Assembly (NCBI GenBank): GCA_029959195.1
Contig: CP114119.1
Span: 310,001 to 374,000 of the forward strand
From: Dictyophora rubrovolvata
Taxonomy: Eukaryota > Basidiomycota > Agaricomycetes > Phallales > Phallaceae
DNA length: 64,000 nt
Reading direction: 5' to 3'
Part shown: piece by piece, positions 5,303-64,000 of the stretch
Numbering within the stretch: position 1 is the stretch's first letter
Layout of the letters: each line of letters starts with the position of its first letter
Notes under the pieces: model-generated
What the model was told of the DNA's origin: nothing
The model's database searches: none
What the model saw: only the letters and a program-made list of their open reading frames with translations
Translations under genes and position numbers: made by a program

Positions 5303-8300
5303 ATATTGCTACACCACATGATCAGTTGGATTTGGACGAACGCGATGTTTTACTCTCCACTCCCTGCAGTATATCCGCTTAGTTTGTGTTAACCCTGCAC
5401 TCGTTATCGCGTTGTCCTCGTCCTGCATGGACCACGCTTGGCCGTCTGATCGCGAAAATAGGAGTCAGAGAGAGGGAGGGAGATAAAGAATGTAAACAAA
5501 GGGACGGGGAGTCGTATGATCGGGATCGCGTCAGTTCCAAGGGTAAGAGTCGTTACAAATTGTTGAACACCAGGTCACAAGTTATAAAAACCAAAAGTAG
5601 AAAGAAAGAGCACAAAGTGCATTCAGGAAAAAAAAATATAATGGACACACGGCGTCAAGGGGTGAAAGGAAACACGCAAGGCCTTTTTGTTCCGCGTGTT
5701 GGCACGAGTCACAAACCCAAACACGTTCTAGCCCGGGCTATTTGCAATAGATGGTTCCGTATTCAAAGTCAGCGCTACACAACAATTTCGGAAGAGATTT
5801 CATATACTTATCTCTTTGATATGGAACATCATTGCTCAGAATTCGTCGTCATGTCTAATTGGAGAGTTCGAAGTAGAAACTTCGGAGTCTTTATGGCCCT
5901 AGATGTTATTATCTTTCTTCCTCAACTACTAAATTTGCCTTGCCTTGATTAAAAACTCGAGCTGGGGATGAGATGTATCGCACCACGCTCAGGTTCGAAG
6001 TTCGCGTAAGGCCATGGCAATCATAGTAAGCAGGCGCCGTGGAGCCTCGGTATACATACATAATATATTATGTATGTATGGGGAGATTTAATAAACGGAA
6101 TGGATGAGAGGATCACATGATACTCTTCAAGACTGTATGTTCAAAGAGTAGCAGTATTGTCGCGAGAAGTAAGGCATCTTCCTATATAACAAGTGCCATG
6201 ACGTTTGGGGTCGTTGAAGTTGAATGAAATCCACATGTCAATTTACCACCAGTGCCTTTGCGCGTTGGAAGAATACACTGACATGAAATGACGAATAGGC
6301 TGGCGTCACATATGTCTAGAACACCATGTAGAGTAATTCATTTACATTCTGAATTGAGCATACAATAATAATATTACCCATTCAAACAGAAATGTCAAAG
6401 AGATGTACCCACAACGCCAGCATAATGGCATGCCAGAAGTACTCGTAGCTTCAGCCATTGAGTTGTTTGATTGGCAGCCACTTGTTCAGCCATAGGCTTC
6501 AGTAGATGGGCTGGCGTGGAGCAGCAAGGGTTACTCATTGGCCTTCTCGCAGATAATGAATTGAAGCATTTGAAGAGTGATCAGTAATCAACTAGTCTTA
6601 GAAGAGCACTGTACTGAAATCAATTCAGAAGGTGCTATGACTAGGGAGGGGATCGACTCCATGTTCCGAGGTTATAATTGAAGGGGGGTCCAATAGTTCT
6701 AGGTCCCGATTATCTAGTTAGATGATAGATATACCATTAAGGTACGTTCCCTATCAAGGAAATTAATAGTGCACCACATGCTACCGATCATCACGAAGTT
6801 GAAAATAGGAATGTAAAAGTTTATAGTTCTGATGTGTGTAGAAGGAAAGAAGTGATGTGGGGTAAAGATGAGTACAACCCAGAACAGCGCCGGTTTCCGA
6901 AATGTGGTCAGCGATAGGTCGTCAGTACGGTCCTCCGCTTAGGCTCTGTAAAGGCATCGCGTTTTAGGTGACCCTAAGTCGAATGTCGCGTTGCTCTTTG
7001 ACGACGTTCCCAAATTAAATGCACCCTAGAAAATTGCGACAGCATTTCAGTGATAACCATGGCAGTTTGAAACCGCAACAGAATGCACCCAGTTTGCAGA
7101 TGTACGGAGGATCAAAGAATAGCACCACAGGTGAATTTTCCGAGTGTCCGGGTGCTGCAGACAAAGAAAGGACAATTACGGTGGCAGAACTGTTTCCACA
7201 CAAAGCCCAAAACCGAAAGAACCAATTCAAGCGAATCCCGACGGCAGTAAGTCAGCCAGATATACATAGTCAGGCTTGCAGTAACAAAACTATCGAGAAC
7301 CAGTGTTCTACTTCATTGACGCGGTACGGGTTGAGTAACAGGACGAAGCAAATTAAGTCCTCGGAGTTTCAATTTGAGCTCTTCGTGCCAGAACATGGCT
7401 TTATCTTCTCTCACCAAATATGAACTCTGCGCCGCCTTATCCACCAGGAGAGTAAATGGCACTGGACCATCTACGTCCCACAGCCGTCCATAAGTTTCAC
7501 GCTAAGCAACTGGCTCCGGGTATATGGATGTATGAGTGTTCCTCTGATATTTTGAAAGAGACCACGACTTGTTGTGCAGTCGTCAAGATAAGTCAGTAAG
7601 ATGGCCTGATCATATAGCGATAGTGTTTCAATCGCCGAGCAGGAGGCCTCAAGTCGGTGAGAGTGTCGAGACGATTAACGAGCTCCCCAAAGTCATTCCG
7701 GTCACGGTGGCCACGTCAGCGATACATGTCGAGAGTGTGTCGCTTTAAATGTCGCGTGTGATTTAGGGAAGCCATTCGTGTTTTGAAAGCGAACGGTATC
7801 ATTAGCTGCTCCGACGTCGATAGCCTCGAAGAAGAATGTAAGAAAATCGCGATGACCAACGATCTTTCAAAAAGGGAGGGAGGGTACATTTATAGCAACG
7901 CAAACCACAGCTCCTCTATAGCCACTCGGATATAAACATCTTCGTGCTCGAGGTAGGGTCAGGTCCATCACCACTTTGGCGCATTCGATATATTGGGACG
8001 GAGAACAAGATGCTTCGTTCCCTCGTCTGGTCAATCTGATAGCCGCGCAGAAGCTTTGAGCGTATAAGTCCATAACATAGAAAACTGTTCAGACTATTTT
8101 CTTGCTCGTCATCAATCCTAACACCTGCAATAGTCCTCCATTGAAGCTAGCAACTTTCTTCCAGTGTAACAGCGGTATCTTGCGAAACTGAATTGGAGTT
8201 GAAATGACCGAAACGGGTTTAAAAGACCTCCTTTTCTTGGGCAGTATTGAGTTGTCACATCATGTCTGTGTTACAACGCTGCAGATTGAACAAACAGGAG

Positions 8301-32377: not shown

Positions 32378-33613
32378 TCACCGGAATAGAACCCAATCAG
32401 GAAACCTCTCTGGTACTCTCACCCAATCAATCCATTGCTCAACCTCGCGGCGCGCTTGTTCACCTAGCTCATGCATATATCTCACAGAAAGCAATATGGC
32501 CTTAAACCCCCACTCCCTGAACCCCTTCCTATCGCCCAAAATCCCCGATACCTTCATCAAATACAGATAATGCCAAAAAGCCGAGGCACACTCGACGCCT
32601 TCCATCATGACCAGTTCCAAACTTTTAGATATGCCGTCTAGGAGCACCTGTGCATGTCCAAGACCCATATAACGTGGTAGACTTGATTCAACGAGTTCAC
32701 CGTAAAAATGTTCCAAGGAGGCGGAGACGGTGCCTCCTTGCTGGAGGAGACGAACTTCATCCGACATTGGTGGTGCGTTCGTGCAGTAGTCGCATGTGCA
32801 TTTGAAGCGATAACTGCGCTCGAGGTCATATCTCCGATTTGCATGTGATTGACTGCAAGGGGCTTCGTATGCTATGGTAAGTTCTTGACCTGCACGAATG
32901 GGACGAACGGCTTGCGCAGAAAGGGTAAACAAGTAAGGGTCCCATGAGCGGGTAAGGTTAGGACCACAACTTTAAAAAACAAATATTTATCAGTTAAAGT
33001 AGATGTAAATGGTGGTAAATCACAAATACCTGTGATTCAAGCGCGAAAGTTCAAGAAAAACACCATTGTAATTCTCTTTTCCTTTCATCAAGTCAATCTC
33101 AAACGCGTTCGTTTCCAAAATCCCAATGAATTCAGAAACGTGAGCATCTTTAACGTTGGCCAAATTATAGAAATTATTCCAAACATCACGATCCATAGCC
33201 AGCCTGGCATACTGCTCGAACATGGCAATGTCCCTCGTTTTTATTGTATGCGCACATATGAGAATTGGACGTTCGACTATCACAATTTCACCCAAAGCTA
33301 TATCTCGAGTTGCAATTATGCCTTTTCCTTTCCCTAGGATATTACGGATTTCGTATGATGGAGGTGGAGGTGGCAGAAGGGTAGGAAGCCGCGGTGGAAG
33401 CATTCGACGTACGACATTGTACACGGCACCAACAACGAATTTCTCCTCTCCGTTATGATCAGAATAAGGGATAATCATAAAATTGATTTTCTGTGGCCTC
33501 TTTCCGCCAAGTATGATATCAATGTCTTGTTTTGTTTCGTTCGTGAGGCCGTTTACGTCGACCTTGTTCGGAGGCTCGTCCATGAGAATACTATGGATTT
33601 GGACTTTAGACAT
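32378..33613 (-). CDS. SET-domain protein, paralog 1
   Basis: Putative lysine methyltransferase of the SMYD/SET5-like type, without a MYND finger. Two exons, 33613-33030 and 32969-32378; 391 residues. An N-terminal module of about 85 residues (VDVNGLT, then VVGAVYNVVRRMLPP) is shared by all paralogs here. The SET domain starts at GKGKGIIATRDIALGE (about residue 92); RLNHSCGPN (Ser near 195) and RPIRAGQELTIAYE form the SAM/lysine site; post-SET CTCDYC (C-x-C-x2-C) follows, then a helical C-terminal domain ending in EVEQWIDWVRVPERFPDW. The intron splits the Ser codon of NHSC at phase 2. It is intact. Substrate unknown. Confidence 0.85.
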
Positions 33614-34204
33614 GGAGATGTTGAGGGAATATAAATATCGACTGATTGTGGGACTGTGGCAGTGAGAGGAGCTTGTACTGTAGGCGCTCTGTCCAGAAGA
33701 GGTTCATTTATAGAGGACATTTTCCGGTCTCGTATAATAAACAAAAAATATATATTCATCACTAAATGTGACAATACAGCTGTTTATGGATGATGATGAA
33801 CTAGGTTCAAATACTTCAAAACCAAAACTCCACAGGAAAAAAAAAGAAGTTCATTTATTAGGACCATGAAACTTCAAACACGTAGAACCCCAATTTTTGT
33901 TTTTTCATGTTTGATGTAAGGTGATATGAGGTAATGTGCTCACCAGCCGAAATAGATACTCCTTGGCATAAAAATTCTTATATTATTATATATTCGGACC
34001 AAGCTTGATTGTTTGCCCAAGCGTCGCTTCGACTATTACAACAAGACAATCTAACCATTTAAAATCAGGTGGTTGACAATGAAATTAAACAGCGAGCGCA
34101 TCATTATTATTAGTAGACAGTAGAAACACGACACTGTTATACAAATATTATGACACTAAATGCACACAACACGTACATTACAATTTATCTCATAAACCCA
34201 GCAT
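33614..34204. other. intergenic between SET paralogs 1 and 2
   Basis: Upstream region of paralog 1 (starts at 33613) and 3' flank of paralog 2. A short frame just upstream of paralog 1 (from about 33720) is out of frame with it and may be only leader sequence or a uORF. Confidence 0.5.
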
Positions 34205-35464
34205 TCAGCGACGGTACCGGCCCCAGTCGGGAAACTTCTCCGGCTCTCTGATCCAGTTAATCCACTGTTCAACCTCCCCGCACGCATTTTCTCTCTCTCC
34301 GTCCGTGTAATGCATAGAAAGCAATATGGCCTTAAACCCCCACTCCTTGAACTTTTTTTTATCACCCAAGAGTCCAAGAATCCTCATCAGACACGCATAG
34401 TGCCAAAGAGCGGCTGCGGACTCGATACCTTCCTTCGTGACTATAACCAAACTTTTGATCAAATGGTCTAGAACCACGTCCGTCTGTTGACGTCGTACAT
34501 AACGTGGTAGACCGGGCTTGATGAGGTCGTGGCACATGTGTCCTAGGCGGATGAAGAGGTTGTTTCCCTGGTTGAGGAGACGATCTTGATCGGATGTGGG
34601 TGAAGTGTTTGTACAGTAGCCGCATGTACATTTGAATTTGTATTTGCGCTCAAGGTCGTATCGCCGATTGGCATGTGATTGACCGCAGGGATCTTCGTAT
34701 GCTATGGTCAGTTCCTGGCCTGCACGAATGGGGCGAACGGCTTGGACGGAAAGAGTAAAGAGATGAGGATTCCACGAGCGGGTAAGGTTGGGACCACAGC
34801 TGAAGGGGAGAAAAATAAAATAAAGGTTACAAAAGGAATTCAAAGCGTAGGTTAATAAGTGGGTGTACCTGTGGTTCAAACGCGAAAGTTCGAGAAAAAC
34901 ACCACCATAATTCTCTCTTCCATTCACCAATCCGATTCCAAACGCATTTGTGCCAATGATACCTCTGAATTCAGATATACTGTCACCTTTCACGTTGCTC
35001 AGATCAAAATACTTGTTCCAATCGTCGGGGTGCATTATATTCTCCGCGTATAGCGCGAAGTCGGTTATGAGTTCGAGGTCCATTACACACGCAAATATGA
35101 GAACCGGTCGTTCGACTATGACGACCTCACCCAAAGCTATATCTCGAGTTGCAACTACGCCTTTGCCTTTGCCTGGTATATCACGGATTTGGTATGCAGG
35201 AGCGTTTGGAGGTGAAAGAAGTGTAGGGAGTCGTCGTGGAAGCATCCCGCGTACGACATTGTATACCGCGCCTACGATGACTTTCTCCATTCCGTTATGA
35301 TCGGTATAAGTGAAAGTTGTGAGGAGGATGTGCTGAGGTTCGTCGCCGACGCCGGATATGAGGTCCGAGTCTTTTTGATCTTGGGGCGTGAGACCATTTA
35401 CATTGATGTTCTTCGGAGGCTCATCCACGTAAACATAAATGGGTTTGTTTTCATTGTTAGACAT
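34205..35464 (-). CDS. SET-domain protein, paralog 2
   Basis: Same family as paralog 1. Exons 35464-34869 and 34799-34205; 396 residues when spliced. Motifs: shared N-terminal module (NVNGLT ... VVGAVYNVVRGMLPRRLP), GKGKGVVATRDIALGE, GTNAFGIGL ... GVFLELSRLNHSCGPN, RPIRAGQELTIAYEDPC, post-SET CTCGYC, C-terminal EVEQWINWIREPEKFPDW. The 69-nt intron (34868-34800) sits at the same site as in paralog 1. It is a multiple of three with no stop, so the unspliced frame is open for 419 codons; retention would insert 23 residues into the NHSC motif and should kill catalysis. Head-to-tail with paralog 1, so a tandem duplicate. Confidence 0.87.
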   Translation of the reverse strand: MSNNENKPIYVYVDEPPKNINVNGLTPQDQKDSDLISGVGDEPQHILLTTFTYTDHNGMEKVIVGAVYNVVRGMLPRRLPTLLSPPNAPAYQIRDIPGKGKGVVATRDIALGEVVIVERPVLIFACVMDLELITDFALYAENIMHPDDWNKYFDLSNVKGDSISEFRGIIGTNAFGIGLVNGRENYGGVFLELSRLNHRYTHLLTYALNSFCNLYFIFLPFSCGPNLTRSWNPHLFTLSVQAVRPIRAGQELTIAYEDPCGQSHANRRYDLERKYKFKCTCGYCTNTSPTSDQDRLLNQGNNLFIRLGHMCHDLIKPGLPRYVRRQQTDVVLDHLIKSLVIVTKEGIESAAALWHYACLMRILGLLGDKKKFKEWGFKAILLSMHYTDGERENACGEVEQWINWIREPEKFPDWGRYRR

Positions 35465-35975
35465 GTTGAGGGTTTAGACTGCGATTTACATTGATTTATG
35501 GAGACTTTTGACAAAAGAACTTGAACTTACATGTACGCCTCAGGCCTCAGCTCAGAGTTGAGGGAAACAACTGAGGGCAGCTCAAACAAAGAAGCTATTA
35601 GCTTTTATACATGAAAAAAAAAATAGACGCGAAAAGTAACTTGAAAGGAACACAAAAGGAATATGCCTCGCCATAAGCAGATGCTTACAAACCCTTATTA
35701 TGTAACACGTCGTACTCTTTCTTCGAACAGGTGTGCTAAAACTTGAAACCTTTTGCTTGCCCTTTGCTGGCAATTGTTCAAATTGTCTTACTCATTTTTT
35801 AGGCTCTGGCTTGAGGTCGAAATGTGTTTGGTGTAAGGTGAATGGACATTATACTCGAAGAACAAAGGAACATGATATACGTAATGGATGAAACGAAATC
35901 ACAATGTATGTACACAACAACAAACACAACATGCACATACATATCACCAAGAAAACAGAAAAATAGAGACACCTT
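35465..35975. other. intergenic
   Basis: Promoter side of SET paralog 2 and 3' flank of the RING-like gene. No other feature seen. Confidence 0.5.
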
Positions 35976-39010: not shown

Positions 39011-40284
39011 TTAAGGAATAGAATATGCCATCCACTCCGCATTTTCTGCGATACCCAACCACTGAGACGCCAAATGAGACACCCATGCCTTAAAAGACCA
39101 CCCGATCATAATTATCAATGCCGTTAGCGAAGGATGACAGTCAAGCGCCACTGCAATTAAATGTTAATTTTTGTTCCGAGAAAAAATGAGCATTTTTGGT
39201 TACCGCGCAAACCGAAACCAGCTGATATCCCACCAATCACGTTACGCACTAACCAATGACGGTCCATTTTATCCTCGTCTAGCATGTTGAGGAGACTGTT
39301 TAGTATGGGAATGTTTGGGTGTTCTGCGTAGTTTGGGGTTGTGATTGGTGCAATTTCGGGTCTCCAGATAGATAGACAGAGCAGGAGGAAGATTTTTGTG
39401 AAAGAGGAGTAGAGTAACGTTAGTGGGATGTGAGATAATCTATTGGAAATGATGAACAAACATTGTTTTTCTTAGTCGTTTATATCAGACGAGCGTACCT
39501 GACTTGACGACTTATTAAAGTTGGACCATGTGGCTTTAATATCCGAATGGTGCGAATAACGAAGAGTGAAGCAAGCATGATTCCGATGTGGAACGTTATG
39601 GTTTCTTCAAAGACAGTCAGAAGGTTTAGATCAATGTGCAATGACTAGCTAGAAACGCACCTATTAAACAAGAAGTGAATATCTTCAAAAATATCCGTCC
39701 TGCTTCCTCATCCCAAGGATAATCTGCTTCAAGCGTCGACAAAGGAACTAAAAAAGCGATGAAACTATCGCGTCTTTGAAAAAAGCAAAAGTTGCTAACA
39801 ATGATTCGACCACCGGATAGCTTTAACCATTAGCACAACGGAAGAAAAAAAAGTTAATAATCAAATCATCTCGCGTACAAGTATCAATAAATATCAAAGT
39901 CATTCCCAACTTCCCAGCCGTATTCCACCTCAACCGCTCCCTCTCTGCAAGAAAATCAGCCTTCTGAGATAGCGGCTTCTCAACATGCTCAAAATCCTTT
40001 CTAGGAGGCCATCCACGATTGAAAAGCAGATGTCGGTATACTCCTCTTTTAAGCAAAATAAGATCCAACAACAAGTTTAATGTGTCATATTCGACATATG
40101 GATCTGCGAATGAAGAACATTTTGGCTGGCGAATGTGAATATGTGGATGAGTGGTGTGATTGTGATTGTGATAAAACGACGAGGAAAGGTTTCTTACACA
40201 TTCTTCTAGACGAAGGTTGTTTTTTGACTCGTAGACTGTGTATAGGTAGTTGACCGGAGCGGTGCATGTGGTGCAAATCGGCAT
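39011..40284 (-). CDS. ARV1: ER sterol/GPI homeostasis protein ARV1
   Basis: Membrane protein of the ER needed for sterol distribution and for GPI and sphingolipid synthesis. Seven exons: 40284-40198, 40125-39879, 39820-39800, 39747-39661, 39604-39499, 39439-39204, 39150-39011; 307 residues, all phases close. The N-terminal ARV1 homology domain is clear: a zinc ribbon CTTC ... C-x2-C formed across intron 1, then SFADPYVEYD and LDLILLKRGVYRHLLFNRG. Several hydrophobic helices follow, then the conserved WLVRNVIGGISAGFGLR. Exon 3 is only 21 nt. The start at 40284 gives the usual ARV1 beginning (M-P-I-C). Its 5' end lies about 45 bp from a truncated nuclease-like gene copy, so its promoter may have been invaded by that copy. 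Confidence 0.93.
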
Positions 40285-40327
40285 TTGCCAGTGTCGATGT
40301 TTGTGACGTGTGTGACATGTCCTCATC

Positions 40328-40858
40328 TAACGGATTTGCTTACAAATATCACGGTACGTTGAGAGGGACGAACAGCAATTCTTGGATGGCCCCCTTCCCG
40401 CCTACACTGGCCCAGCTGGTTTCATCCAGTATGAGAATCGCGCTCAAGACATCGATAGCCAATCACTTGCGCTCATTAAGCGCCTCGACCTCGCTATGAA
40501 GATAAAAGAAGGCGTGTGTGAATGACCGTTTGCTCCGTCTCGTAACCTAGTGCACGGAAAAATTCTGCAGCATTGAAGTCGTCGAAGGCCGATTCTTCGC
40601 AAGAACCTTCGGCTCAGTATGTGTTCAGAGCAGGTGTACGCGAAAACTGACGTTTGCGTCCAAAACGTCGACTCCGACTTGACTCCGACATCCTACTTCT
40701 TGTTCAAGAAGACAAATCGCATACAAGTCCGGTCGATCCAAAAGTACGAGCACGACTGGTGGCTGAGATGATCTCTGCTTTTCAAACGAATAATGCCTCG
40801 AAACTCTTTCTTCCACCGTTGCAAAGCTACTTTGTCCTTCACGCAATACCTGAATCTT
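40328..40858 (+). pseudogene. broken 5' part of nuclease-like family gene
   Basis: Sequence clearly alignable to the intact genes at 41.2-43.0 kb, from about their codon 15 to codon 165, but no longer open. Around 40515-40600 the segment that should encode the VDDF ... FRALGYE block is present in reverse orientation, so this copy has an internal micro-inversion of about 90 bp. It stops at 40830, where a 35-bp sequence begins to be repeated at 43649. The 3' part of the gene lies there. It is truncated at its 5' end next to the ARV1 start. Confidence 0.85.
40796..40830 (+). repeat. 35-bp direct repeat, left copy
   Basis: Identical base for base to 43649-43683. It is part of the nuclease-like coding sequence (the LFLPPLQSY region), and marks the left edge of the block that separates the two parts of the broken copy. 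Confidence 0.85.
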
Positions 40859-41165
40859 AATAGTCAAATACATCCCGTTCCCTAATCATTTCTTTTAACA
40901 CTCCCTCCCTGTCAATGAGACAATAACATATACGGAGTATTATTACATTCATTCCTCCCTCATTCCACCACACAATACTTTTACCGTGACGTTCAAGTAT
41001 AATAATATAATAACAAATTCTACTAATAGTTCTAACACTCAACTCCATACAACCATAATCGAACAAAAGGGACACAGGGTACCGCAACAAACCCGTCGAA
41101 AGAGCTCCATCAGCACTCTTCACTCAGCCCAACCTCGCGCAGACCTTGCCACACCCAGCTCAAGC

Positions 41166-42035
41166 TCAAGTAAGCGTGGAGACTGGATATTGATGAGTGC
41201 CATCTCCTAGAGGATTGGGAGCATTGAGATAATAAATGTAAAACAAGGGGTTGTGCTCACCTTCTTGTTGATAAATAAACTGCTTGAACGCTTCATAGCA
41301 TTGTAGAATTCTGACTCGGTTATCCAAAGGTCTCATACCATCACTGCGACGTCCAGGTATACGGGGAGTATGTCGCTCAAGAATGGTTTCAACTGCAGGG
41401 TACTGTCCAGTCCATATAGCTGAATCCAAGTCACAAGTGACTTTCATCTTATAAAAGTGCGGAAAAGTTCCGACCATTGCGATGCCTGGGAAGATGTAAC
41501 TCTGCAACGGTGGAAGAAAGAGGTTTGCGCGTCTATTAGCGTTATTTGCTTGAAAAGCAGCGACCATGTCGGCCACCAGCTGTGCTTCTGAACCAAGCGG
41601 GCTAATATATGATTTGTCCTCGTGAACAAGCAGTAAGATGCTGGAGTCGATGTTTTGGACGAAAACGTCAGCTCTGGCCCACACCTGCTTTGAACACATG
41701 GCGAGCCGAAAGCTCTTGCGTGTGCGAACGACCGTTTGCTCCGTCTCATAACCCAGTGCACGGAAAACCTCTACGGTAAAATCGTCGACGGCCGATTCTT
41801 CGCCTTCTGCCATCTTCATAGCAAGGTTGAGACGCTTGATGAGCGCAAGTGATTCTCTATCGATGCCTTGAGCGTAATCCTCATATTGGATGAAACCGGC
41901 TGGACCAGTGTAAGCAGGAAGAGGGCCACCGAAGAATTGCTGTTCATCCCTTTCGACGACTGTGATATTGTAAGCAAGCAAATCGTCCAAGTCCCAGTCA
42001 CTACCGGATTTGGAGCGTCTGATGAAATTAGCCAT
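41166..42035 (-). CDS. nuclease-like orphan family protein, copy A
   Basis: Single-exon frame of 289 residues. It belongs to a family I associate with many uncharacterised Agaricomycete proteins. Seen: start MANFIRRSKSGSDW; conserved FFGGPLPAYTGP; then an acidic block EGEESAVDDFTVEVFRALGY; RADVFVQ followed by LLLVHEDKS; then QLVADMVAAFQANN. The spacing glutamate - LGY - Asp - (E)xK with hydrophobic strand LLLVHEDK and a following QxxA helix is the pattern of PD-(D/E)XK nucleases, so a nuclease fold is my inference; no activity is known. C-terminal half has MVGTFPHFYKMKVT and ILQCYEAFKQFIYQQ. Diverges from copy B, from which it is separated by a 171-bp shared promoter. Confidence 0.8.
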   Translation of the reverse strand: MANFIRRSKSGSDWDLDDLLAYNITVVERDEQQFFGGPLPAYTGPAGFIQYEDYAQGIDRESLALIKRLNLAMKMAEGEESAVDDFTVEVFRALGYETEQTVVRTRKSFRLAMCSKQVWARADVFVQNIDSSILLLVHEDKSYISPLGSEAQLVADMVAAFQANNANRRANLFLPPLQSYIFPGIAMVGTFPHFYKMKVTCDLDSAIWTGQYPAVETILERHTPRIPGRRSDGMRPLDNRVRILQCYEAFKQFIYQQEGEHNPLFYIYYLNAPNPLGDGTHQYPVSTLT

Positions 42036-42206
42036 TAGAGTGCAAGTGGGAGAGCTTGGAGGAGCTTGGGTTTAAGAGCTGAGCCAAGTAAGCGCTGTTG
42101 CATAGGCAGGGCGCCGGCATGCTCTCCTTGGTCTTACTTTCATTACGTTTATGTGACATTTATTATGTCAGCAAGGTCGCCATATCTGCACGCTCTTTGC
42201 ACTCCG
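42036..42206. promoter_or_regulatory. shared head-to-head promoter of copies A and B
   Basis: 171 bp separate the two ATGs. The 20-30 bp before each ATG are similar to each other when inverted (a GCTCT...TTGCACT pattern), so both genes probably keep an ancestral leader, while the middle is unique. Both genes must be driven from here. Confidence 0.5.
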
Positions 42207-43049
42207 ATGGCTAATCACATTAGACTTGCGAAATCCGGTAGTGAATGGTCTCATAACGATTTGATCTCTTACAATATCAAAATCGTAGAAAGGGGCGAAC
42301 AGCAATTTTTCGGTGGCCCTCTTCCCGCTTACACTGGTCCAGTTGATTTCATCCAGCATGAAAATCGCACACAAGGCATCGATAGCAAGTCACTCGCGCT
42401 CATTGGGCATCTCGACCTCGCTATGCATGTGGAAGAAGGTGAAGAATCGGCTGTTGATGATTTTGCTGCAGAAGTTTTCCGTGCACTGGGATACGAGACG
42501 GACGACACGGTAGTTCGCACACGCAAGAGCTTGCGGCTCAAGATGTGTTCAGAGAATGTGTATGCGAAAACTGACGTTTGCGTCCAAAGCGTCGACTCCC
42601 ACGTCCTACTACTTGTTCAAGAAGACAAATCACATATTAGACCGGATGATCCAGAACCACAACTGGTGGCTGAGATGATTGCTGCTTTTCAAACAAATAA
42701 CCTTATCCGATTCGCGAAGGACCCCCTTTCACTGTTGCAGAGCTACGTCTTCCCAGGCATCACAATGGTCGGAACTTTTCCGCGCTTTTATAGGATGAAA
42801 GTCACCCTTGACTTGGATCGAGCTATAAGGGCTGGACAATACCCTGAGATAGAAACCATCGTTGAGCGACATACTCCCCGTGTACCCAGACGTCACAGTG
42901 ATGGAATGAAACCTTTGGAAAACCGAGTTAAAATTCTACAATGCTATGAAGCGTTCAAGCAGTTTATTTTTCAGCAAGGTGAGCACAACCCCTTCTTTTA
43001 CATTCATTATCTCAATATTCCCAATCCTCTAGGATATGACACTCATTAA
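42207..43049 (+). CDS. nuclease-like orphan family protein, copy B
   Basis: Single exon, 280 residues from the ATG that matches copy A (MANHIRLAKSGSEW). The frame is open upstream to 42066, but that part has no counterpart in copy A. Same blocks: FFGGPLPAYTGP; EGEESAVDDFAAEVFRALGY near residue 80; Asp in KTDVCVQ (about 123); LLLVQEDKS with E-D-K at about 139-141; QLVAEMIAAFQTNN. These fit the core of the PD-(D/E)XK fold (inferred). The product is full length and lacks visible signal peptide or membrane helix. The C-terminus (HYLNIPNPLG) lies where copy A has YLNAPNPLG. No DNA-binding or targeting domain is recognisable. Confidence 0.8.
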   Translation: MANHIRLAKSGSEWSHNDLISYNIKIVERGEQQFFGGPLPAYTGPVDFIQHENRTQGIDSKSLALIGHLDLAMHVEEGEESAVDDFAAEVFRALGYETDDTVVRTRKSLRLKMCSENVYAKTDVCVQSVDSHVLLLVQEDKSHIRPDDPEPQLVAEMIAAFQTNNLIRFAKDPLSLLQSYVFPGITMVGTFPRFYRMKVTLDLDRAIRAGQYPEIETIVERHTPRVPRRHSDGMKPLENRVKILQCYEAFKQFIFQQGEHNPFFYIHYLNIPNPLGYDTH

Positions 43050-43648
43050 CATCCAGTCTCAACGCTTACTTGAGCTTTCGAGAGTATGACGGGGTCTGCG
43101 TGGGGTTGTCCTGAGAGTGGGCCAACTTGAACCGTAGGGTGAGGAGTGCTGGCGGGACTCTTTCGACGGGTTTGTTACGGTAATTGTGTCCTTTTCTATT
43201 CGATTTTGACCTTTTCTGTTCACTTATGGCTTTTATCGTTATTATGGTTGTATGGAGTTGAGTGCTAGCTAATAGAGTTTGTCATTATGTGTCCATGTGC
43301 ATGTCCCTGTCATTTTGACACCTACTTCTCCATTCAGTCCCTTGACGAGTGCGTTTCTTGTAGATGGTTTATGGTTCACAAGCCTTGCAATTACTTTATA
43401 AATCAACTGCGTTGTTTGCCGTCCTCGCCAGCCGATAATTTTATTATTATCTGTCTTCTCTTCCGAGAACAGCCTGTAATAAAGCAAAAGCTATGTACAT
43501 ATTTGCGGTGTCAAATCATGGAAAGTCGGTGTCATCATTGATCCAGTCCTTTTACATCTCGCTGTTGGTATTTTCCTTGCCGGAACGATTACCCTCTTTT
43601 TCACGTTGGGTACTCGAATTGCATGGACCATCGTCGTTATCACGGGCA

Positions 43649-43683
43649 CCTCGAAACTCTTTCTTCCACCGTTGCAAAGCTAC
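43649..43683 (+). repeat. 35-bp direct repeat, right copy
   Basis: Identical to 40796-40830. The interval between the two copies, 40831-43648, is 2,818 bp and contains the whole inverted repeat with genes A and B. Confidence 0.85.
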
Positions 43684-43979
43684 GTTTTCCCCGGTATCAC
43701 AAATGGTCGGAACTTTCCCGCTCTTTTATAAGTCGGCCGTGACTTGGATCTAGCTATACGGGCTAGACAATACCCTGCGGTAGAAACCATTGTTGAGCGA
43801 CATACACCCTGTATACCTGGATGTCGCAGGGATGATGGTATAAGACCTCTGGATAATCGGATCAAAATTCTACAGTGCTTTGAAGCGTTTAAGCAGTTTG
43901 TTTTTCAGCAAGAATGTAAGCATAACCCCTTCTCGTTTTACATTCATTACTTCAATGTTACCAATCATTTTCTCTAGAG
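43649..43979 (+). pseudogene. broken 3' part of nuclease-like family gene
   Basis: Matches the last 110 or so codons of copies A and B (blocks QYPAVETIVERHTP, NRIKILQCFEAFKQFVFQQ, FYIHYFN), same strand as the 5' part at 40328-40858. The two parts overlap only by a 35-bp identical stretch. No start or complete frame. Closest reading: one ancestral gene whose middle was separated by the 2.8-kb block carrying copies A and B. Confidence 0.85.
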
Positions 43980-44694
43980 TCGATGGCACTAGTCAACCTC
44001 GATTGCATAAAGAGAATGTGTTTCGCAGTTTTGTTATTTCTTTTTTTCCTAGTAATTGACGTTTATCCATAGGTGAAAACCTTAATCAAAGATGCGCTCG
44101 GATTTGTCGTTGGACATAATTCAGATTAGAGCTTTGTTAGAACTTGGACTCCAAAGTAGTAAAACTGAACCTTGTATTCCATTAATAATGAAGCATTTCT
44201 TCTGTTAAATATCTTACAAGTTTGACACAATGTTTATCCAACCAGGACTAGCGCCTTCGTGGCCCGGTATCAGTTTAGCGCTCGCCTTGCGTTTCTCCGT
44301 TGCCCAATCGTCGATAATTGTTGTTCAAATGTCGCTCAACCCGCCGCAATGCACTTCAGATGGTCACCCGATAATGGGATAAAGATAAGCAAAAATCACA
44401 CGCACTATTTATGTATGTGATTTATGCCTATTTGTTTTGGAGGCTACGGCATTAGACTCCGGACCATTTGCCCCGGCGATTTCATCCCTTAAACATCAGT
44501 ATAAACTATGTAGATCTCACCGTTTCTTTGGTGATGATCTTACCTTATCACCTCGTATCGGAGTTTTGTGCGTTTAGTTTGCCTTTGTAGACCTTTTTTT
44601 TACTGCCACAAAGGAAGAGGTGCGAGTCTCCAACAACACCAACAAACATTTATTTGTCTCTCATTTCATCTACCTCCCTATCAACAACACCCTC
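43980..44694. other. intergenic
   Basis: AT-rich, without supported frames; includes the 5' flank of the broken SET copy, with a TATA-poor pyrimidine-rich leader near 44570-44690. Confidence 0.5.
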
Positions 44695-45926
44695 ATGCTT
44701 CAAAATCTCAGAATACGATCCGATTTTGCCACCCGTGCTCCAAAGAGCGTCAGCGCAGAAGGTGTCCCACCCGAAAAGCAAAAAGACTGGGACATTCTAT
44801 CGGGCAATGGCAAACCTCAACACATTATCTTCATCAATCTTCCTTACATTGATCACGGTGGCAATGAAAAATACATCGTCGGTGCGGTGTACAATGTGGT
44901 ACGCAAGACGCTCTCACCATTGCTCCCTGCCCTACTGCCGCCTCTACAAGGTTCCTCCGGCATACGCGATCCGTGACATCCCAGGAAAAGGAAAGGGGAT
45001 AATTGCGACGCGCGATATTGCGCTTGGTGAAATTGTGGTAGTTGAACGGCCGGTTCTTGTATACCCTCTTATGATGTATATGAGTTCTTTCGCGCCGTTC
45101 CGAGAGTACGCCAAGCTATCGATGGATCTAGAAGACTGGGAAAAGTTCAGTAATCTGGTGAACGCGAGGGATGGTGAAGAATACGAGTTCGATGGAATTA
45201 AAAGCACGAACGCGTTTACCAACGAATTGAAGAAATGAAAGGAGGATTACGGTGCTGTTTTTCTCGAGCTTTCGCGTTTGAACCATAGGTGCTCACATCT
45301 TTATTCTTATATATCGAACGCGTGTTAATTAACTGAGATTCCTTAGCTGTGGTCCTAATCTTCTTTGTTCATGGAATACTAACCTCTTCACACTCTCTGC
45401 ACAAGCCGTCCGTCCCATTCGGGCAGGCCAGGAGCTGACCGTCGCGTACGCGGACCTCTGCGAGTCACACGCCACTCGCCGATTTCAACTTCAATGCCGC
45501 TACGAATTCGAATGCAAATGCGGCCACTGCATAAAGACATCACCATCAACATCTGATGGAGACCGTAAGGTTATGCAACCAGACGTCTCCTCCGCCACCT
45601 TAGAGCTCCTGTACAGCAAACTTGCCAAACCCAGTCTGTCTCGCGAAGCGGCTCGTCCATACATCAACCAGTTCTCGGGCCTTATGAAGAAGAATCTGGT
45701 ATTGATCGCGAAAGAAGGAATTGAGTCCTCATCGGCTTTTTGGAATTATGTTTATCTGATGAAAGCGTCGAGACTTGTGGGTGATAAGAGGGAGTTTCAA
45801 AGGTGGGGATTCAAGGCTGTATTGATGTCTGCGAAATATGTGGAGACTGAGGGCGAGGAAGCGTACTGCAAGGTTGAGCAGTGGATTACCCGAGAAGAAA
45901 TTTCCTGAATGGGGTCAGTTTCTATG
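44695..45926 (+). pseudogene. broken SET-domain paralog 3
   Basis: Recognisable over the whole length: the N-terminal module (IIFINLPYIDHGGNEKYIVGAVYNVVRK), GKGKGIIATRDIALGE, the SCGPN motif after the usual intron, AVRPIRAGQELTVAYAD, post-SET CKCGHC, and the C-terminal GFKAVLMSAKYVETEGEE. Compared with paralog 4 it carries a 1-nt insertion near 44948 (after LPPLQ), a premature TGA at about 45236 replacing a Gly codon, and a 14-nt deletion near 45890 that removes the usual IDWVKEP block. The intron site in NHSC is kept. The many intact motifs suggest recent loss. Sequencing errors could explain one of the changes but not all. Confidence 0.8.
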
Positions 45927-46683
45927 ACATTGAGATGGTAGTACGCATGGTGGAAATTGAAACTGCAGGGTGGCGAGGGTTGGTTTATGGGCACTTTGTC
46001 CTCAATGCGTCCATCGGATATACCAATGGACAGTTAGGACAACATGCGTGTCCAATATATCTGGGACGCGCTGCTCAACGCGAACCGTGTACAAAGCAAG
46101 TATTCGAACTGGAGGGTGTCTTTCTTTATCTAATGGGTATGTGGACAGGAGCAGAAAACAATGTAACGATGAACTATCCCATGGATGAGGCTCTAGTAAG
46201 ACAGTGCTCTCTCGTTTTGTTGCTTTCTTACCCTCGCTAGTCTAGAATTAATCTTCACATTTATCGGACGATCTTACTCGATCATTTTTTCAAACTGCCA
46301 AACGGCACTGGATACATCTTGCACCATTAATGATCGAGTATGCCATGTACTCACTGCGTACAGATCCAGCGCAGCTGAAGGCAAATATTTGACAGACAGA
46401 CACGAACAATAATAATCCATGTCTTCAGTCTACAAACCCGCAATAGATGTTGGGGCCGTAATTCCTGAATAAACAAATAGAATTTCAAGGCTGAATATTA
46501 AATGATACCTATTAATGGCGGTATGTGAATTAATAATGCGCGTTGTCACTTTCACGCATGCAACTAGTCGGAGTTTCATGCATCTGTCTCACTTTAATTT
46601 GCCTTCGCAGTGACCTCCATTTTATTCACTTTTTTACATTACCCCCGGCCGTTGTCTCTTATTTCCTAATCTTTTTGTCCGTT
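45927..46683. other. intergenic
   Basis: An open frame at 45881-46240 overlaps the pseudogene tail and has no recognisable domain. Otherwise the promoter side of SET paralog 4. Confidence 0.5.
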
Positions 46684-47903
46684 ATGGGTGATGCTGCACT
46701 GTATATCAATGAAGAACTTGAAGTTCCCACATCCGACCACCAAAGGAACTGGGACATAATATTCGGCGGGAGTGAACCACAGAACGTTGTACTCGCAAAG
46801 CTTCCCTACTTTGACCACAACGATAATGAGAAATTCGTCGTCAGCGCAGTGTACAATGTCGTCTACGAGATGCTCCCACCAGTGCTTCCTGCCCTGCTGC
46901 CCCCTTTACAGGAACCTCCAGCATACACAATCCGCGATATCCCAGGAAAAGGAAAGGGGATGATTGCGACTCGAGATATTGCCCTTGGTGAAATTGTTCT
47001 AGTCGAAAGACCGGTTCTTATATTCCCTCTTGCGTTGCTCAGGGATGCTGTTACCTCGTTCCGAGAGTATGCGACGCGATCGATGGATCCTGAAGACTGG
47101 AAACAGTTCTCGAATCTTGTAAATGTCAAAAATAGTGATATACCCGAATTCGACGGGATTATGACCACAAACGCATTTACCATCGAGTTAAAGGCAGGAA
47201 AAGAGGGTTATAGTGGTGTTTTTCTTCAGATATCCCGTATAAATCACAGGTACAAATTACTACTTGCATCTTACATCTGCTCTAGTAATAATAATAACCG
47301 ATGCTTCTTAGCTGTGGCCCTAATATAGAGTGTATATGGGATTCCCATCTCTTCACTTTTTCCGCACAAGCCGTCCGTCCAATTCGTGCAGGCCAAGAGC
47401 TGACTGTCACATATGAAGATCCCTGCAAGCCGCACGTTGAACGCCGACGTCATCTCCAACGCATTTATAAATTCAATTGCCAGTGCGGTTACTGCACAAA
47501 GACTTCACCATCCTCCGACCAGGACCGTTGCTCCTTAAACCCAGATGTCGCTGCCCCACACTTTGACGCCATGTACGAGAAACTCCTCGGACCCGATCTT
47601 CCTCGTCGTGTGGGTCGTCAAGAGACTAAGCAGTTTATAAACTCTCTGACCAAAAGTTTGGCGTTGGTCAGGAAGGAAGGTATTGAGTCCGTCTCGGCTC
47701 TGTTGCATTATGTTCATCTAATGATGTTGTCGGGTTTTTTGGCCGACAAGAAGTCGTTCAAAGAGTGGGGTTTCAAGGTAGTGCTGCTTTCTTTGAAGAA
47801 TGTGGGGACTGGTGGTGAAAACGCGTGCCGCGAGGTTGAACAATACATTGATTGGGTGAAAGAACCTGAGAAGAATTTTCCTGGGTGGGGTCAGTTCCAA
47901 TGA
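46684..47903 (+). CDS. SET-domain protein, paralog 4
   Basis: Intact member of the SMYD-like family. Exons 46684-47249 and 47312-47903; 385 residues. The N-terminal module VVLAKLPYFDHNDNEKFVV ... MLPPVLPALLPPLQ precedes GKGKGMIATRDIALGE; FDGIMTTNAFTIEL; GVFLQISRINHSCGPN with the intron inside the Ser codon (near residue 189); RPIRAGQELTVTYEDPC; post-SET CQCGYC; C-terminal EVEQYIDWVKEPEKNFPGW. An upstream in-frame ATG at 46543 would add a hydrophobic segment, but paralogs support 46684. Same strand and orientation as broken paralog 3, 760 bp away, so a tandem pair mirrored to paralogs 1-2 on the other side of the nuclease-like block. Confidence 0.87.
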
Positions 47904-51282: not shown

Positions 51283-53772
51283 TCACCCCATTTTACAGCA
51301 ACCTGGAAAATTATACAAAAACTCGTCGTGAAAACTATGCCAATCCTCTTTCTTCTGCATCACCTCACAAACCCTCGCCAATTCACGCTTTCGCTCGCTT
51401 GGTGGATCGTTTTTATGAACAGCCTCCAAATGCTTGACAACATTCTCCTTCCTCATCACCGAACACGTCTCTCTCGGGCATAACGAGCACTTGAGCGCTT
51501 CAATATGTCGACGAGCGTACAGATACTGTTCCTCCGTGCAGACAAAGTGAGCAGGCATCTGCGGATCCTCTAAAGCTTCTGCATCGTACTCATCCAGGTT
51601 CTCGACAGCCTGTATGATGTGCGTCGAAACGATATGCTCCAACTCCTTGTCTTCCCTACCGTTCGTGGGACCTCCTCCACAGAATCTACAATGATGTCCC
51701 TCGCCTTTTTCCTCACCCACCGCCTCATCCGTAGTGAAGCAGTAATCCAACCAATTCTGGCCTCCAAATCGGCGCACACATCATCCTGCGCTTCTTTTCG
51801 CTCGGGGAACCGGTCTCCCTCTTCCTCTTGACTTTTGTGCGTGGCGCCGGGTTAAAGATGGGTGACAAGGGTGGGATTGGCACCTCGACATTGACGGGTG
51901 AAGGATTGGATATCGGATTGGGATCGTTGGTGGGTGAACCCGAAGGTAAAGTCGGGTGTGGGGTGCCTTGTTCGGACTGAATAGGCCGTGGAGAAGGCGA
52001 TGGATTGTGTGTTTGGGGAGCGACAGCAGCGTCTGTTGGAACAGGAACTGAAGGAAATACAGACAAGAAGTCGTCAGTTGGGGGAAAAGATGTGTTGACG
52101 GCAGGAGGCGAAGCAGTGGGAAAATGCAGAGTTTGAGGAATTACGAAGTTTGCAAAGGGATTGAGTGGTATTGGCTCGACGGAGTACATATAAGGTGCGG
52201 TTGTCGCCGTCCGGTATTGCGCCCCTTCAGCATATTGGAAGCCATATCGTTGAAGATCGAGGGCATCTTGGGAATCATTAAAAACTAAAGGGACAGCAGG
52301 ATAAAGAGAGGAAGCAGAAGTGAGAGAACAGTCAGCGAGGAGCATTGACTCATCCCCGGGCTCCATCATCAACTCCAACGAAGCAGTTCGATTGTTACCT
52401 GCCTGGGTATATCCAGCCTCTCCACGTTGGAGATGTTCCATTTCGGCGCGGAGGTGGGCATGTTGAAACGGTTGGGGTTTGATATGGGACTCGGGGGTAT
52501 ATTCTAAGTATTCCGGTCGCGTCGTTAAATTGGCATGTTGGAACGATTGGAGGTTAATTGCAAAGTGGGTATCTTGGTGATCTTCGGGCGCGGGGGGCGT
52601 TGGAAGGGTTAGACGGATTGTCCAACTCTTCAAACCATCGCATCACATCAACTTGGGGGACGTCGCCATTCGACATCCCTTGTTCCATGCGACATGTAGG
52701 TGATAGTGTAGAGGAGCTGGAATAAATCGTGTGATATTAGCAATACGCGCAGCGATAATAAATTAATCAATTTACATATTGAACTCCTCTTGAGTGCTGG
52801 CCAAGGTGTTAGCGTAGCCTATGTAAAGCGGGTCGTCCTTAAGGAATGTGGGCACAGCACTTTACATTTGACACGTCAACGATGAGATGAACGAACGGAA
52901 GAAGAAAGAAGTAAATCATACCAGTCCGGAGGCACTATCTCCCCGCTGGATATAATATTAGGGGATGTCAGAGTAGGTCGTTTCAAGGCCGTTTCGCTGT
53001 CCGTTTCGATTTCAGTGAAACGGCTGGTGAAACGGCGAAACGAGTGAAACGCCTCAAGAGGCGTTTCACTGAACTGAGCGAAACGGCAGCCGTTTTGCTG
53101 TCCGTTTCACCCATCGGTCGTTCTCGGTCAGGGATGAATTTTTAAGGAGAATTTCTAGAAATATTTCTTTAATAAATCATATAAAACTTTTTTGAGCGAC
53201 TGTACAATACATAGGTGAAACGGCGCACGAAACGGACTGGCAGCGGGGGTGTTCAGAGTTAAAACGGGATAAGTGGTATTCCCGAGGTATTCCCGACATC
53301 TCGAAACGGGCAGCGAAACGGACAGCGAAACGGCCTTGAAACGACCTACTCTGACATCCCCTAATGGACCGTAGCCAGTCCGAACTAGAAAATTGAAGAG
53401 TCGTCAAATTATGAGACATCTGAAGACGATAATTACTTACCCGTCATACGGTGTCTCGTTGAGTTCGCTCGATTGAGCGGTTTCAATTTGCCGATCTTGT
53501 AGTGGGACGGCTTCTACAGGCGGTCCCCCATCGGCTACCCAGTGAGCAGGCATACTAGCGACAAAGTCGTCCAGCGCTGTCCTGAGCTGTGTGTCATCGC
53601 TGAGGCACATGTTCTTATTATTAAATAATAAGACGGCATGAACGGCTTACAGATCTTTGAGGCTTTCAAAGAAGTTGTGGTGGGGGGGAAAAGCATGAGG
53701 GTGGCTCCCAGATTGAGTATCTAAAGGAAAGGGAAAGTCGTTGACGAGGGAAGCGGTGGTAATGGGGTTCAT
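51283..53772 (-). CDS. C2H2 zinc-finger protein, putative transcription factor
   Basis: Exons seen: 53772-53651, 53599-53441, 52945-52922, 52859-52776, then from 52726. Phases of the first five close. Long Pro/Ser-rich middle with repeated SFQHANL / PFQHAHL units, a basic KVKRKRE ... EKKRR stretch near 51800 that may be an NLS, then two C2H2 fingers: CRFCGGG ... HIVSTH and CSLC ... HLEAVH. Nuclear. Two problems: the frame breaks inside a run of six C at about 52625 (one C fewer would connect MRWFEELDN to the repeat region), and the junction to the finger exon near 51777 needs an intron I cannot place securely. The second intron holds a 401-bp MITE. The gene may be a mutant allele or contain a sequence error. 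Confidence 0.6.
52961..53361. mobile_element. MITE with 48-bp perfect terminal inverted repeats
   Basis: Non-autonomous DNA transposon of 401 bp. The left end starts GGGGATGTCAGAGTAGGTCG and the right end is its exact inverse for 48 bp. It is flanked by a TA duplication (52959-52960 and 53362-53363), as in Tc1/mariner-type insertion. The interior is built of GTTTCGCTG / GAAACGG-like units in both orientations, including a hairpin centred near 53056, and no transposase frame is present. It lies in an intron of the zinc-finger gene, which becomes about 500 nt, the longest here. Perfect TIRs suggest a recent insertion. Confidence 0.9.
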
Positions 53773-62880: not shown

Positions 62881-63735
62881 CCTTATTTTTTATTCAAAGC
62901 ACAGGTTATGCTCGCCTGCACTGTATCAGTAATCTGGTCAGTGGACTGACTGAGTCAAATCCGGCAAATCCGGGTTATGAACGTTGAACAGTGGGATCTA
63001 GTGAGATTTAATTATGGCTCGCCACAGAACTCTTTCGAATATATATGGAATGCGGAGACACAACAGCATGACACGGGCACTCCCGATGAGAACGAAAGCT
63101 CAAGGAAGCTAAAAATAAATAACGGCAAATTTTAGAACCATCGAAAGAGTGTGTCGAGCCTGAAGGCTTGCGCCAAGAACAAAATCGAAGCTCAAAAAGA
63201 GGAAAGGTCTTCGCTGGGTGGAGACCGCACTCCCTATACTCATTCATCCACTTCCAGGACGAACTCGAGCTCGAAAATATGTCAAAGCAAACCAATTCGC
63301 TAGTACCTACCCACAAGGCATCGTGACGATGGTTTGAATTGGGATTAGAACGAGAAACAATGGCCCATTTCGCATCCATGTAAGAGTTCCGAGTCCCTCG
63401 TGTATTTTTTTGAACCGAAGTCTGTCGTGAGGTCTCTGTTAATCGACGTCGACCTGGAGGACAGGAACAGGTTGCTCAGTTTATGTAACGTGACTACGCC
63501 GAACGAGACCGAACGGCAACATTGTCGGTGTTTCAAAGTCTCATTCATTCGGCATTAACAATACATAAAAAAAATTTGTTTTGTTCTCAATTCAATATTC
63601 ACCGTCGTTCATTCAATAGCAACTCCGTCATCAGAATCTCTCTTCGCGGTTTACGTTTTCAAAGTCATTCGTAGTACATGTACATATGCATACAACACCT
63701 AGCAGCTATAGGACTTAAGTCCACATATTTCAGTC
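62881..63735. other. intergenic
   Basis: Holds the second copy of the dispersed repeat (63489-63535). The frames at 63008-63548 on the minus strand show no conserved domain. Confidence 0.5.
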
Positions 63736-64000
63736 TCATCGAAATCGACCCCAACCGGGAAAACTCTCGGGCTCTTTCACCCAGTCAATCCACTGCTCAA
63801 CTTTACGAGACCCTTTTTCGCCTTCAATCTCCATATACCTCACTGAGAACAGCAGAGTCTTGAATCCCCAATCTCTGAATTTTTTCTTATCGCCCAAGAG
63901 TCCCGATACCTTCATCAAATACACGTAATGCCAGAAAGAGTAAGACTCGATACCTTCCCTTGCGTTCGCTATTACCTTTTCGACAAGGGTGTCTAAAAAA
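63736..64000 (-). CDS. SET-domain protein, paralog 5 (cut by window edge)
   Basis: C-terminal 87 codons of another member of the SET family: FWHYVYLMKVSGLLGDKKKF, then DWGFKTLLFSVRYMEIEGE and the terminal EQWIDWVKEPESFPGWGRFR before the stop. It aligns closely with paralog 1 (YLYLMKVSGILGDRKGF ... EQWIDWVRVPERFPDW). The rest lies beyond 64000. Confidence 0.85.
   Translation of the reverse strand, partial: FLDTLVEKVIANAREGIESYSFWHYVYLMKVSGLLGDKKKFRDWGFKTLLFSVRYMEIEGEKGSRKVEQWIDWVKEPESFPGWGRFR

Follow-up and report, generated by a model that had tools for sequence, protein, structure and literature searches.

The window, by which we mean the whole 64-kb stretch of DNA that was analysed, holds a 2818-bp block (40831-43648) with two intact paralogs, A and B. 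On either side of the block lie the remains of a third copy of the same gene family, C: its 5' part, or C5, to the left and its 3' part, or C3, to the right. Gene A lies on the minus strand (41166-42035, 289 aa) and gene B on the plus strand (42207-43046), where its 280 aa are counted from that ATG within a longer open frame; the two genes are head-to-head and their proteins are 70% identical. The same 35-bp sequence stands at both edges of the block as a direct repeat on the plus strand, with its left copy at 40796-40830 and its right copy at 43649-43683. An exact repeat of this length at both edges, and a pair of intact head-to-head family members between same-strand parts of a third copy, had both been proposed in the original prediction and were borne out. 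The extents of the two parts needed some revision. The 5' part, which had been placed at 40328-40830, is family sequence on the plus strand, but BLAST to A and B detects it at 40336-40830, and it is not clean, being disturbed by an inversion, an 11-nt insertion and frameshifts. The 3' part, which had been placed at 43649-43979, is likewise family sequence on the plus strand by BLAST to both genes, and its detected end extends to about 43996.

The window reads as a chromosome of a fungus, probably a basidiomycete, judging by its short intron-like stretches, a DUF6535-like scrap and its ARV1 and SET genes. To the left this feature borders on ARV1, a minus-strand gene with a Pfam Arv1 match at E=1.7e-20, and to the right lie SET-related genes, whose Pfam SET matches are below the cut-off (E=0.0048 and 0.0027); a left-hand SET relative at 34208-35473 matches with E=1.6e-8. 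The Pfam scan of this neighbourhood covered 20 of the 40 stop-to-stop frames of at least 130 aa. Tandem pairs of related genes at 32381-35473 (minus strand) and 44591-47900 (plus strand) are placed as mirror images around the region, with identities of 69-71% inside the pairs and 65-66% between them. Three scanned frames of these pairs match SET, two of the three below the cut-off, and another related piece lies at 63725-63958. C begins about 50 bp away (40284-40336) from where ARV1, on the opposite strand, probably has its start codon, and the dead gene C may double as ARV1 promoter sequence.

Judged from its sequence, C is a pseudogene, with about eleven indels in total and lesions in both parts. 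In C5, about 31 nt are missing near the start; it also carries three insertions (1 nt, 11 nt and 6 nt), a 9-nt deletion and a segment of about 85-89 bp inverted in place (40512-40600, minus strand). In C3, an in-frame stop lies between a 1-nt insertion and a 7-nt deletion. The inverted piece matches A in the sense opposite to the remainder of C5 (84% by BLAST), and once reversed it is 87.2% identical to A and 82.6% identical to B; at its edges only GCG/CGC was seen. The start of C5 is uncertain: a weak similarity to the start codon region begins at about 40318, and its score was reached by 64 of 300 shuffles against A and by none of 300 against B. C3 holds an intron-like GTAAGC..CTCTAG stretch, recognised by consensus match only. 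Shuffle tests detected no family similarity beyond the coding part of C on either flank. The sequence after C3 scored 27 against the 3' flank of A (reached by 124/300 shuffles) and 25 against that of B (269/300), and the upstream flank of C5 did no better, its scores being reached by 208/300 shuffles against A and 248/300 against B.

We compared C with A and B on either side of the block, counting the repeat on both sides. The identity of C to A is 406/495 (82.0%) in the 5' pieces and 274/344 (79.7%) in the 3' piece (p=0.42), and that of C to B is 398/495 (80.4%) and 266/341 (78.0%), respectively (p=0.43). C is thus similarly distant from both genes on either side, so C5 and C3 fit one split gene. 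A and B themselves are more alike in the 3' part (300/348) than in the 5' part (424/540; p=0.004), a contrast that is seen at nonsynonymous changes (p=0.02) and reaches p=0.06 at synonymous sites alone. This contrast could reflect different histories or origins of C5 and C3. As C is about equally far from A and B on the two sides, we read it as conversion between the inverted arms of A and B, or as constraint.

The homology of A and B extends past the genes into an inverted duplication, with a left arm at 41007-42045 (minus strand) and a right arm at 42197-43288 (plus strand) that are 79.4% identical over their main stretch. The 3' flanks of A and B are common to both (score 159, as compared to a maximum of 62 among 300 shuffles), and their upstream flanks are not clearly so (score 24, reached by 30 of 300 shuffles). 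Over 257 codons the two genes differ with a dS of 0.35 and a dN/dS of 0.51 (bootstrap 0.34-0.76), and over all 280 aligned codons with a dS of 0.32 and a dN/dS of 0.55; when the alignment is divided into two parts, dS is 0.43 and 0.20. By these values both genes are probably under selection, and their split is old. A 38-bp perfect inverted match (41273-41310 and 42932-42969) lies in the higher-identity 3' part of this otherwise diverged pair, possibly as a result of gene conversion between the arms.

Set against the dS of 0.35, the complete identity of the two repeat copies implies that the A-B pair is older than the event that made the repeat, if short-tract conversion is set aside; judged by divergence, the A-B split would predate it well. 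The private branch of C is about 0.08-0.14 changes per site, by arithmetic from the identities, and the repeat event therefore appears to have come late in the history of C.

The two copies of the repeat are identical at 35 of 35 positions, and the match ends on either side. The 64-kb window has no longer exact direct repeat, and the next two, of 31 and 28 bp, are shared by a pair of SET-gene paralogs of about 71% identity; A and B have a common exact run of 38 bp. Since these runs occur between diverged paralogs, exactness by itself does not show that a run arose recently, and we therefore counted identical 35-column windows in nine alignments (A against B, and four pieces of C, with the repeat left out, against A and against B). 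Only 4 of 2130 windows are identical, all of them within the one 38-bp run of A and B. Inside the repeat, C matches A at 29/35 positions and B at 24/35, and A matches B at 24/35, so the repeat is not a specially conserved stretch. If each copy had since gathered 0.043 changes per site, the two would still agree over all 35 bp with a probability of 0.043; for 0.08 changes per site per copy this probability falls to 0.002. Identity of this kind is unlikely between independent paralogs, and the two copies are most likely of recent common origin.

Of the lesions in C, the 9-bp deletion lies 0-3 bp from the left edge of the left repeat copy and is seen against both A and B. A plain target duplication is expected to leave a seamless edge, and a rejoined break end need not be seamless. 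The loss of these 9 bp hints weakly at a templated-copy origin of the repeat; the hint is weak because C carries about eleven indels, and the chance that one of them falls within 3 bp of either of two edges is very roughly 1 in 5.

No terminal inverted repeats were found at the ends of the block, the best inverted matches in the outer 100 bp being three of 6 bp, none at both tips. The right end is a 47-codon open stretch (43507-43647, plus strand) that matches the end of the DUF6535 profile (PF20153, positions 143-176 of 177) and is cut by the junction; this match is below threshold, with 17.2 bits against a gathering cut-off of 23.9 (E=0.0049), and we refer to the stretch as DUF6535-like scrap. 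There is no other copy of the block within the 64-kb window. The left flank of the block matches nothing in the window at an E-value below 0.11, and the right flank matches a single 32-bp stretch at 39839-39870 (81%, E=0.005). By its ends, then, the block does not look like an element.

Several routes to this arrangement were tried and rejected. Gene conversion does not account for the junctions, as the 100 bp just inside each edge do not resemble the segment of C that should follow at that point (227/300 and 113/300 shuffles score as high), and conversion between C5 and C3 fails since their overlap is limited to the 35 bp. Retroposition was rejected because there is no A-run next to either edge and C3 keeps its intron-like stretch (a consensus match only). 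Crossing over between inverted copies would result in chimeric genes.

We consider it moderately probable that the locus is a scar of break repair or template switching, which duplicated 35 bp and took in a segment with a ready-made A-B pair. The decayed copy C, divergent beside ARV1, would have broken, or a replication fork within it would have switched template. The ends would then have been rejoined with about 35 bp present twice and the 2818-bp segment between them. Along with the already old head-to-head pair, this segment would have brought a fragment of a DUF6535-like gene at its right end. The repeat might have arisen when the overlap of a staggered break was filled in, or when the right-hand end served as template for a second copy during joining; in the template-switch version, copying would resume 35 bp back. 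The anatomy, the 35/35 identity and the lesions in C are observed directly, whereas we infer that a single, unsplit C preceded the event, that the block entered as one piece, and that a repair route of this kind joined it.

Counted for the repair scar were the 35/35 identity as compared to 4/2130 windows, the similar distances of C5 and C3 from the intact genes, the A-B dS of 0.35 set beside the lack of any difference between the repeat copies, the absence of inverted matches longer than 6 bp between the block ends, the right edge inside DUF6535-like scrap, the 9-bp deletion at the left edge, the other scars in C, and the precedents in other systems described below. Against it we counted that the insert belongs to the family of its target, which random capture does not require and which local clustering could explain; that the insert is longer than the 10-1000 bp range given for rice in PMC7407515; that the DUF6535 match is under its gathering score; that one of the indels of C could lie so near an edge by chance; and that A and B differ in similarity between their 3' and 5' parts (p=0.004). 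The insertion into a homologous target that had been suggested stands as the best reading, with break repair, which was among the suggested routes, favoured, while the suggested gene conversion does not explain the junctions. A self-targeting mobile unit, the other route suggested at the outset, has no backing here apart from the guess that the product is a nuclease: terminal inverted repeats are lacking and the right edge lies inside DUF6535-like scrap.

Among the alternatives, C5 and C3 might be two recent duplicate paralogs that were truncated independently and overlap by 35 bp by chance, with A and B always between them. The many lesions of C, the lack of detectable family flank on either side and the shift in A-B similarity between the two parts (p=0.004) are consistent with such a history, and in about 8% of cases (by arithmetic) two random truncation points in a gene of about 870 bp would lie no more than 35 bp apart, a share that is not negligible. 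However, an overlap of 35/35, against 4/2130 windows, means that C5 and C3 would need to be very recent duplicates, and C is similarly distant from A and B in both parts. We regard independent truncation as unlikely.

The arrangement could also be an artefact of assembly, in which a short overlap of about k-mer length led to a contig carrying A and B being placed inside C. Overlap-based joins can leave an exact repeat some tens of bases long on either edge, and an exact repeat of that size is present here. The window, however, contains no N, and neither the DUF6535-like scrap at the right edge nor the 9-bp deletion at the left is predicted by such a join, although these points are not decisive. 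An artefact seems to us quite improbable.

The block might instead be a transposable unit of a kind not yet described, with target duplications of 35 bp. A direct repeat of the target flanks a block with two intact genes that show some constraint (dN/dS 0.51, bootstrap 0.34-0.76), just as a direct repeat flanks the insert in a transposon insertion with target site duplication. Unlike such an insertion, this block has no inverted ends, its right end lies in gene-like scrap and no other copy of it is present in the window; in addition, 35 bp is unusually long for the target duplication of a DNA transposon. This explanation is very unlikely.

The remaining explanation concerns the proteins themselves, which had been called nuclease-like. 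D123 and E139-D140-K141 are conserved in both A and B, and we take these residues to resemble a PD-(D/E)XK site. Among the PADLOC profiles only PDC-S03 matched, weakly and in B (residues 71-159, E=0.02), and among the NCBIfam profiles only TIGR02246, weakly and in A (E=0.17). There was no match to Pfam profiles for A or B; a search of PDB with A gave four chance-level matches (best E=0.51), and the A/B profile gave none. Two structure models, one led by A and one by B (two sequences each), had mean pLDDT values of 30.7 and 31.9, too poor to show a fold. No relatives of A or of the A/B alignment were confirmed in viral contigs (22 and 129 pattern matches), none in bacterial and archaeal genome contigs (554 pattern matches), and none of A in plasmids at E up to 0.1. 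A literature search on restriction endonuclease-like proteins in Agaricomycetes returned no paper. The term nuclease-like is best taken as a guess, and nothing ties the A and B proteins to the break.

That these proteins are nucleases cutting copies of their own family, so that the pair inserts into its own relatives, is highly improbable: the insert and target are of the same family, and the conserved residues and the PDC-S03 match of B are compatible with it, but there is no Pfam match, no PDB match above chance and no usable structure model. A self-targeting unit is further disfavoured because homing copies without leaving a long target duplication. We likewise give very little credence to a selfish A/B pair that cuts members of its own family and has its DNA taken in at the break, so that the family nests in itself with long duplications. 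If the pair itself had caused the break, it would represent a novel route by which a gene family spreads, and nothing here shows that.

The repair scar has partial counterparts in other systems. For rice, the review PMC7407515 describes insertions of 10-1000 bp, ascribed to breaks that were repaired wrongly, in which partial tandem duplications occur and the inserts come from several places; a 'patch-mediated' break repair is attributed to Vaughn and Bennetzen 2014, as cited in PMC7407515 and PMC6097286. Like those insertions, the present locus has a short direct target duplication with other sequence between the copies and no apparent element ends. Unlike them, it has an insert of 2.8 kb that is paralogous to the target, and no empty allele was seen here.

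According to PMC8355091, fill-in of complementary overhangs as short as 43 bp gives small tandem duplications, which resemble the present repeat in being a few tens of bp long, there set by the overhang; in that system the copies are adjacent, whereas here 2.8 kb lie between them. In Magnaporthe oryzae, large insertions of added donor DNA occur at Cas12a cuts (PMC9684475), and on the repair-scar reading both cases would involve a fungal break that took up kilobases of other DNA. Those inserts differ from the present one in being added donor DNA in concatemers, and the portions of PMC9684475 available describe no 35-bp target duplication. If the repair-scar reading is true, the locus would be a natural example of a gene-bearing, multi-kb insertion with a 35-bp target duplication, and it would show how a family gene pair could move as a unit.

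Two further elements were seen elsewhere in the window. A 409-bp unit at 52957-53365 has perfect 52-bp inverted ends and GAAACGG-like motifs repeated inside, and by this structure it looks like a small non-autonomous DNA transposon. At 6052-6079 there is a perfect AT-rich palindrome of 28 bp.
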